Made by a program: the position numbers and the translations under genes | NCBI RefSeq assembly: GCF_000689395.1 | Contig: NZ_HG966617.1 | Coordinates: 3,322,721-3,386,720, forward strand | Length of the DNA: 64,000 nt | From: Candidatus Phaeomarinobacter ectocarpi | GTDB taxonomy: Bacteria > Pseudomonadota > Alphaproteobacteria > CGMCC-115125 | Reading direction: 5' to 3' | Notes under the pieces: model-generated | The model's database searches: none | Seen by the model: the letters and a program-made list of their open reading frames with translations, nothing else | What the model was told of the DNA's origin: nothing | Part shown: positions 29,841-30,370 of the stretch, piece by piece | Position numbering within the stretch: position 1 is the first letter of the stretch | How the letters are laid out: every line of letters begins with the position of its first letter

Positions 29841-29999
29841 TTCTGCGTTCTAAAAGTGTGTCTTACTGGACTCACCACGTCATGAGTATTTCTCATCACC
29901 ATGAATTATATTCATATTGTCCTCGACAAAGTCCTGCCCCTGATTCAAGTTCAGAAACTGTGGTGGCCGCTGCCACTCATTGCGTTAGACCTGCAATGT

Positions 30000-30031
30000 G
30001 AGCTTCAACTTCAAATTAGAAGTTGAAGCTC
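30000..30031. terminator. Perfect 13-base stem-loop overlapping the stop of the 39-residue ORF
   Basis: GAGCTTCAACTTC (30000-30012) and GAAGTTGAAGCTC (30019-30031) form an uninterrupted 13-base stem with a six-base loop. The stop codon of the minus-strand small ORF (30016-30018) lies in the loop. There is no T-run on either side, so it may be a 3'-end stabiliser or a site of protein binding instead of a classic terminator. It also lies downstream of glnD. Confidence 0.6.
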
Positions 30032-30135
30032 AGTTGTATCGGGCGAGATCGAAAATGCGAGCACACATGCTCCATTCGACCGCACCTGAACCGGGTGTAA
30101 GCGTGGACAAATACGTCCTTCACACGCGATTTCAT
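30016..30135 (-). CDS. Probable 39-residue protein of unknown function
   Basis: A short frame beginning MKSRVKDVFVHAYTRFRCG and ending RSRPIQLSFNF. It is rich in basic and aromatic residues and has two Cys (18 and 25). The case for a real gene: a textbook AAGGAGG lies four bases before the ATG; a seven-base hairpin (30155-30171) sits just upstream of it; a 13-base hairpin spans the stop; and a plausible promoter lies 118 bases upstream. Otherwise this 530-base gap between glnD and murJ is empty. The frame stays open upstream to a TTG at 30240 without a ribosome site. Unrecognised, not secreted by sequence; possibly a nucleic-acid-binding peptide. Confidence 0.5.
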   Translation of the reverse strand: MKSRVKDVFVHAYTRFRCGRMEHVCSHFRSRPIQLSFNF

Positions 30136-30154
30136 ACAACCTCCTTCGGTTAGG

Positions 30155-30171
30155 GCCAGCCTCAGGCTGGC
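30155..30171 (-). promoter_or_regulatory. Leader hairpin ahead of the 39-residue ORF
   Basis: GCCAGCC-TGA-GGCTGGC (read on the minus strand) is a perfect seven-base stem with a three-base loop. It ends about ten bases before the AAGGAGG of the small ORF, so it could influence translation or message stability. Confidence 0.45.
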
Positions 30172-30252
30172 TCTGTTGAGACGCTCGTCGCCCCGCCGCG
30201 AGAGGGCAAAGAACGGCGTTCCGAAGGTGAGTGGCAGCAACCACCGAATCAG

Positions 30253-30281
30253 ATTCTTGGATGCTTGGCATGCCGGATCAA
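30253..30281 (-). promoter_or_regulatory. Possible promoter of the 39-residue ORF
   Basis: On the minus strand TTGATC (30276-30281) and AAGAAT (30253-30258) are 17 bases apart. Each matches four of six consensus bases. Transcription would start about 110 bases before the small ORF. Confidence 0.3.
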
Positions 30282-30370
30282 GTGCATACCGACATTAATC
30301 CACAGCTTTGTGTAAAATCAGGCCGACCGTTGCCTTGTCTTTGCCCGCAAACACCCGCAAGCCTTAGCCC

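Follow-up and report, generated by a model that had tools for sequence, protein, structure and literature searches.

Phage morons are known from sites such as the rex and tin/old slots, and like the element described here they stand alone, with their own promoter, between unrelated phage genes, these slots included. In the type I toxin-antitoxin systems AapA1/IsoA1 and hok/sok, there is likewise a small open reading frame on an mRNA with paired ends and with the Shine-Dalgarno (SD) sequence held within structure; the full-length AapA1 mRNA is described as inactive, its 5′-3′ interaction sequestering the SD sequence and stabilizing the message (PMC8167048). A further parallel is offered by tmRNA and tRNA-like ends, which share paired ends, an internal reading frame and an ACC overhang past the closing stem, the last being present in 11 of 29 elements studied here. 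At the protein level, the PHROG 21154 entry, to which no function is attached, covers the same family as the peptide of this locus, the protein H0092 of phage VT2-Sa being its best structural match, and no study of this family was found in the literature, including by searches with peptide fragments or H0092.

The locus analyzed here lies in a window (the whole stretch of DNA analyzed) of 64,000 nucleotides from Candidatus Phaeomarinobacter ectocarpi, and its features are listed in Table 1. Compared with the type I systems, the element has a basic β-sheet peptide instead of a membrane peptide and a coding sequence that is itself structured, while no antisense promoter signal was found among σ70-type sites and 3′ trimming is not predicted to open the fold. 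Unlike tmRNA and tRNA, it has a normal start codon and ribosome site, its closing stem of at least 12 bp leads into a junction, and no tRNA or tmRNA was detected by ARAGORN or Rfam. It is much smaller than the phage morons, has a folded message, and is also found on plasmids and alone in chromosomes. For the PHROG 21154 entry no RNA-structure record was found, and the copy in the window is chromosomal, located between glnD and murJ. With a probability of roughly 0.6, the element is interpreted as a horizontally mobile, moron-type unit of one gene, composed of its own promoter, one closed message and one protein of about 40 residues, the role of which is inferred.

Table 1. Features of the element and the basis on which each was assigned
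Feature	Positions	Strand	Basis or remark
Promoter TTGATC-17-AAGAAT	30253-30281	-	-10 ends 7 nt ahead of first P1 base; 8/12 matches
P1 5′ arm, closing stem, GGTGGTTGCTGCCACTCA	30228-30245	-	Fold and comparison; first base is the predicted transcript start
P2 5′ arm CCTTCGG	30221-30227	-	Directly inside P1
P3 hairpin between the P2 arms	30179-30219 (approximate limits)	-	Fold; consensus pairs with compensatory changes
P4 leader hairpin GCCAGCC(TGA)GGCTGGC, 7 bp	30155-30171	-	Sequence, comparison, consensus pairs
P2 3′ arm CCGAAGG	30143-30149	-	Overlaps Shine-Dalgarno sequence
Shine-Dalgarno sequence AAGGAGG	30140-30146	-	4 bases ahead of ATG, from sequence
Coding sequence, 39 aa, PHROG 21154 family, MKSRVKDVFVHAYTRFRCGRMEHVCSHFRSRPIQLSFNF	30016-30135	-	ATG at 30135, stop ends at 30016; homologue alignment, PHROG match, dN/dS, structure model
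Coding hairpin GAGCA(TGTG)TGCTC over EHVC codons	30059-30072	-	Homologue folds; synonymous-shuffle z = -2.3 for this copy
Stop-codon hairpin, 17 positions, 94% complementary	29999-30032	-	Seems copy-specific
Conserved 3′ hairpin TTGC(AGGTCTAAC)GCAA, 9-nt loop	29980-29996	-	Hairpins with 9-nt loops at the same place in homologues
P1 3′ arm, TGAGTGGCAGCGGCCACC	29962-29979	-	18 coding-strand pairs (16 Watson-Crick, 2 G-U)

The first-pass annotation had read the minus-strand frame, with its SD sequence shortly before the ATG, as a real small-protein gene overlooked by automated annotation. Frame and SD sequence are indeed present, and the view that the 39-residue gene is real is strongly supported by the conservation of its family, by purifying selection on its codons and by a positioned ribosome site and promoter. 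By tblastn, the peptide matched 98 plasmid records at E <= 1 (best E = 8e-5) and 5 phage records (best E = 4e-4). Twelve invariant columns were common to nine aligned members, and a ten-residue core, V-Y-R-R-G-E-V-H-R-S, was invariant across 39 aligned homologues. As no stretch of the alignment was conserved enough for alignment-based genome scans, homologues were sought instead with a degenerate DNA pattern for this core, which occurred in at least 120 viral stretches of IMG/VR (chance expectation estimated at below 1). Nearly all of the matches lay in short open reading frames, about 30-50 residues from the likely start, and most of them had a ribosome site. The peptide of the window matched PHROG 21154 with E = 3.5e-8, its residues 6-32 aligning to positions 19-45 of the 47 in the profile, and the same entry was matched by all 37 aligned members tested, while searches of Pfam and NCBIfam with the family returned nothing relevant. 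A DNA-level search of relatives and plasmids gave no match, so that similarity survives only in the protein and in the pairing. The comparison of synonymous with nonsynonymous change that the first-pass annotation had recommended gave a median dN/dS of 0.19 on codons left free by the search pattern (11 core codons), with 117 of 124 pairs below 1; a first estimate of 0.10 had been biased by that pattern and was replaced. Judged from these codon comparisons, the peptide is under purifying selection.

A small, basic sheet of four β-strands is predicted for the peptide: its AlphaFold model has no helix (pLDDT of 94-97 in the core), and its 39 residues include six Arg, two Lys and four His against one Asp and one Glu. 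Searches of the PDB by sequence and by fold returned only noise and no analogue of the peptide; its best viral structural match was the 40-aa H0092. The C-termini of many homologues read QLxLF or QLxFxF, the copy in the window ending in QLSFNF (30019-30036). These tails resemble the β-sliding-clamp binding motif, a likeness inferred from sequence alone. Weak matches to the family profile were also seen within much longer open frames of two other genomes (L161/L214 in G344 and L162 in G373), for which neither gene status nor homology has been shown.

A larger feature, overlooked by the first-pass annotation, is a closing stem, P1, within which the entire gene lies. Folding of the minus strand over 29950-30280 gave -155.6 kcal/mol (z = -8.6), well beyond chance. 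For each homologue, P1 was scored as the strongest stem that the 5′ flank could form with the flank following the stop codon, and flanks swapped between loci provided the null. Scores of at least 30 were reached by 26 of 102 non-redundant homologues versus 0.74 expected from partner swapping, and scores of at least 32 by 18 of 88 loci versus 0.17 expected. The arms vary in sequence among loci and yet pair, for example GAGCTGCCCCTGA/TCAGGGGCAGCTC and GGTGACGGCCCGCCG/CGGCGGGTCGTCACC. A P1 of such strength is confined to about one quarter of the homologues and is absent from the lambdoid members; the 29 loci with scores of at least 28 are referred to below as P1-bearing. In 11 of the 29 loci the P1 3′ arm is directly followed by an ACC that resembles a tRNA acceptor overhang, and in 13 a CAC starts at the last P1 base.

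The promoter noted in the first-pass annotation exists; it scores below the cut-off of the consensus scan, yet promoters recur at the same spot in homologues. Among the 29 elements, σ70-like promoters peak with the -10 box ending 5-8 nt before P1 (z of 2.7-4.4), and those with at least 8 of 12 matches gave 18 counts in the four peak offsets and 0-1 at every other offset listed. The transcript is thus predicted to begin at P1, in the absence of expression data. No convincing antisense peak comparable to the sense one was found among σ70-type sites, the only type scanned.

Further helices lie inside P1. A P2 score of at least 16 was obtained for 19 of the 29 P1-bearing loci, against 5.5 expected. 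The element is long, and the MAFFT alignment of its leaders is unreliable. RNAalifold applied to 17 elements of the window's subtype recovered P1, P3, the leader hairpin, the coding hairpin and the 3′ hairpin, with compensatory double changes in 23 of 27 consensus pairs. This procedure favours P1, since the 17 sequences had been chosen for possessing it, but the other helices were not selected for. On the sense strand, G-U pairs outnumbered A-C pairs by 28 to 15, as expected for an RNA read from the coding strand. In a further check, independent of the stem counts as is the promoter position, synonymous codons were shuffled gene by gene without altering the protein or the codon composition; relative to these shuffles the folding of the native coding sequences had a mean z of -2.23 at P1-bearing loci (24 of 27 below -1; p = 4e-8) and of -1.19 at the other loci (n = 77). 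Because synonymous permutation weakens folding, the coding letters are selected for structure as well as for protein. Comparative evidence thus gives good support to the view that the entire message, with its coding letters, is maintained as one closed RNA fold. No Rfam family scored above the gathering threshold anywhere in the window, and no relevant match at E <= 10 was obtained for the homologues. The seven-base leader hairpin of the first-pass annotation belongs to this consensus, compensatory changes included. The hairpin it placed across the stop codon can be formed here and was not seen in aligned homologues; the conserved element is instead the neighbouring 3′ hairpin. Its suggestion that two hairpins control the message is partly supported, in that conserved, compensated structure overlaps the ribosome site, but the stop-spanning hairpin is not the conserved part and control itself is only inferred.

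Predicted accessibility of the SD sequence was slightly lower than in shuffled leaders (median of 0.32 vs 0.40; lower in 18 of 29). The mean of 0.35 for the full-length message was little altered by removal of the P1 3′ arm (0.33) and rose to 0.51 on removal of the P2 5′ arm, compared with 0.40 in the shuffled controls. As accessibility shifts with the P2 arm and not with the P1 arm, it is P2 rather than P1 that would set translation, and P1 may protect the message ends.

The taxonomic distribution of the element is patchy. A 491-bp segment (29841-30331) is absent from the same intergenic site of a sister species that is about 91% identical (G002), where the murJ leader comes almost immediately after glnD, and the three congeners lack a homologous frame. 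According to the first-pass annotation such an absence from close relatives would refute the gene, and this is literally what was observed; recent insertion, and not a spurious frame, is the likely explanation. Weak tblastn matches in relatives (L004-L026), inspected in part, looked like chance, and convincing matches were rare and scattered: of 397 other Pseudomonadota genomes sampled, 11 (about 3%) had one. In the congener G001 the same glnD-murJ slot holds a BrnT/BrnA-like pair, identified by eye (L157), hinting that small cargo lands repeatedly at this site. Homologues are carried by more than 120 viral contigs, by plasmids, by prophages of E. coli O157 and by chromosomes here and there. 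Of 5426 complete E. coli genomes, 266 gave megablast matches to a lambdoid-type copy (232 of them over most of the query), many of the matches listed being O157:H7, and most plasmid copies among the matches listed have no annotated gene. In lambdoid phages the gene is located between cI and N, whereas on plasmids and in P2-like prophages it adjoins the PADLOC candidate defence ATPases PDC-M12A and PDC-S06, respectively. It also occurs downstream of XRE-peptidase regulators (RmrA in PADLOC), on its own within runs of phage late genes, and next to genes resembling gyrB or thrS, these neighbours having been named by eye. The closeness to defence candidates may only reflect shared cargo slots. On two viral contigs, two different copies of the element stand in tandem, about 300 bp apart (L192, 8317-8702; L193, 2218-2625).

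Several other explanations of the locus may be considered. It is conceivable, if doubtful, that the locus encodes a toxin of the hok/AapA1 kind, whose folded mRNA stays silent and is restrained by an antisense RNA. The layout is common to both, with a 5′-3′ closing stem, a small reading frame and a structured leader at the SD sequence, and the end pairing typical of type I messages is met by P1 with a promoter placed at its first base; carriage by plasmids and prophages, the BrnT/BrnA-like pair in the slot of the congener and the tandem copies point in the same direction. However, the peptide is basic and soluble-looking and does not meet the expectation of a hydrophobic membrane peptide, toxicity being inferred only. 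The lack of a comparable antisense peak among σ70-type sites also weakens this explanation, as does the failure of P1-arm removal to free the SD sequence in silico, so that release by 3′ trimming as in hok or AapA1 is not supported. An explanation held with similarly low confidence is a dual-function RNA, in which the folded RNA would be the working molecule and the peptide its dedicated partner in a small ribonucleoprotein. Such a role would fit a structure that runs on through the coding sequence and is reflected in selection among synonymous codons, and it would equally fit the conservation of structure beyond the SD region (P3 and the 3′ hairpin), the basic β-type peptide and the acceptor-like ACC after P1. 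The lack of an Rfam match does not favour it, and RNA and peptide are separable, the peptide being retained in many homologues in which no P1 is detected.

A MITE-like DNA transposable element, with terminal inverted repeats and a reading frame carried by chance, would account for the long inverted repeat around a 284-bp unit and for the insertion polymorphism between species, but it is most improbable: the element is present in a single copy where a MITE or insertion sequence should be multi-copy, the arms of homologues vary and covary rather than forming one shared terminal repeat, the promoter is fixed outside the repeat, and the insert exceeds the repeat unit with no target duplication obvious by eye. 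A spurious short frame with chance hairpins, for which only the three congeners without the frame could be cited, is refuted by family-wide conservation, selection and covariation and can practically be dismissed.

Under the preferred interpretation of a mobile one-gene unit, comparison indicates that the message starts at P1, which holds its two ends together, that P2 overlaps the ribosome site, and that the remainder, coding sequence included, forms the further conserved hairpins. This interpretation is limited by the restriction of strong P1 stems to about a quarter of the homologues and by the small drop in SD accessibility. By inference, the closed fold makes the message long-lived and damps its translation, the peptide being released in particular circumstances, which may be unwinding, processing or phage infection. 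Less certainly, and without binding data in either case, the basic sheet may bind nucleic acid and the QLxLF/QLxFxF tail of many members may bring the peptide to the replisome. The peptide would then be an accessory factor serving prophages and plasmids, with exclusion, defence or toxin action as the most likely inferred roles; a role as defence or toxin remains a possibility based on inference. A bolder version, to which little confidence is attached, places the element in an undescribed class of mobile dual genes: a single RNA, about 280 nt long, would encode the conserved 40-residue protein and at the same time be a closed structural RNA with a tRNA-like 3′ overhang (C-ACC), RNA and peptide forming one phage- or plasmid-borne effector.

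Although widespread among phages, plasmids and prophages of E. coli O157, the family has no known function, and no RNA entry was found for it. Its members may form a class of very small defence or toxin genes, which are often missed by gene callers. If fold and peptide work together, the element would constitute a new design for tiny accessory genes, and it provides a testable case of codon choice serving two ends, protein and fold. Two further observations concern the neighbourhoods of homologues. In 24 lambdoid loci, a conserved gene of about 170 residues and unknown function (the L033/L139 type) lies just upstream of the small gene, with no PADLOC match for the one copy tested. On the Acinetobacter lwoffii plasmid pZS-2, a traJ-II RNA (RF01760, 67.9 bits; L030, 2110-2211) was identified near the gene copy.
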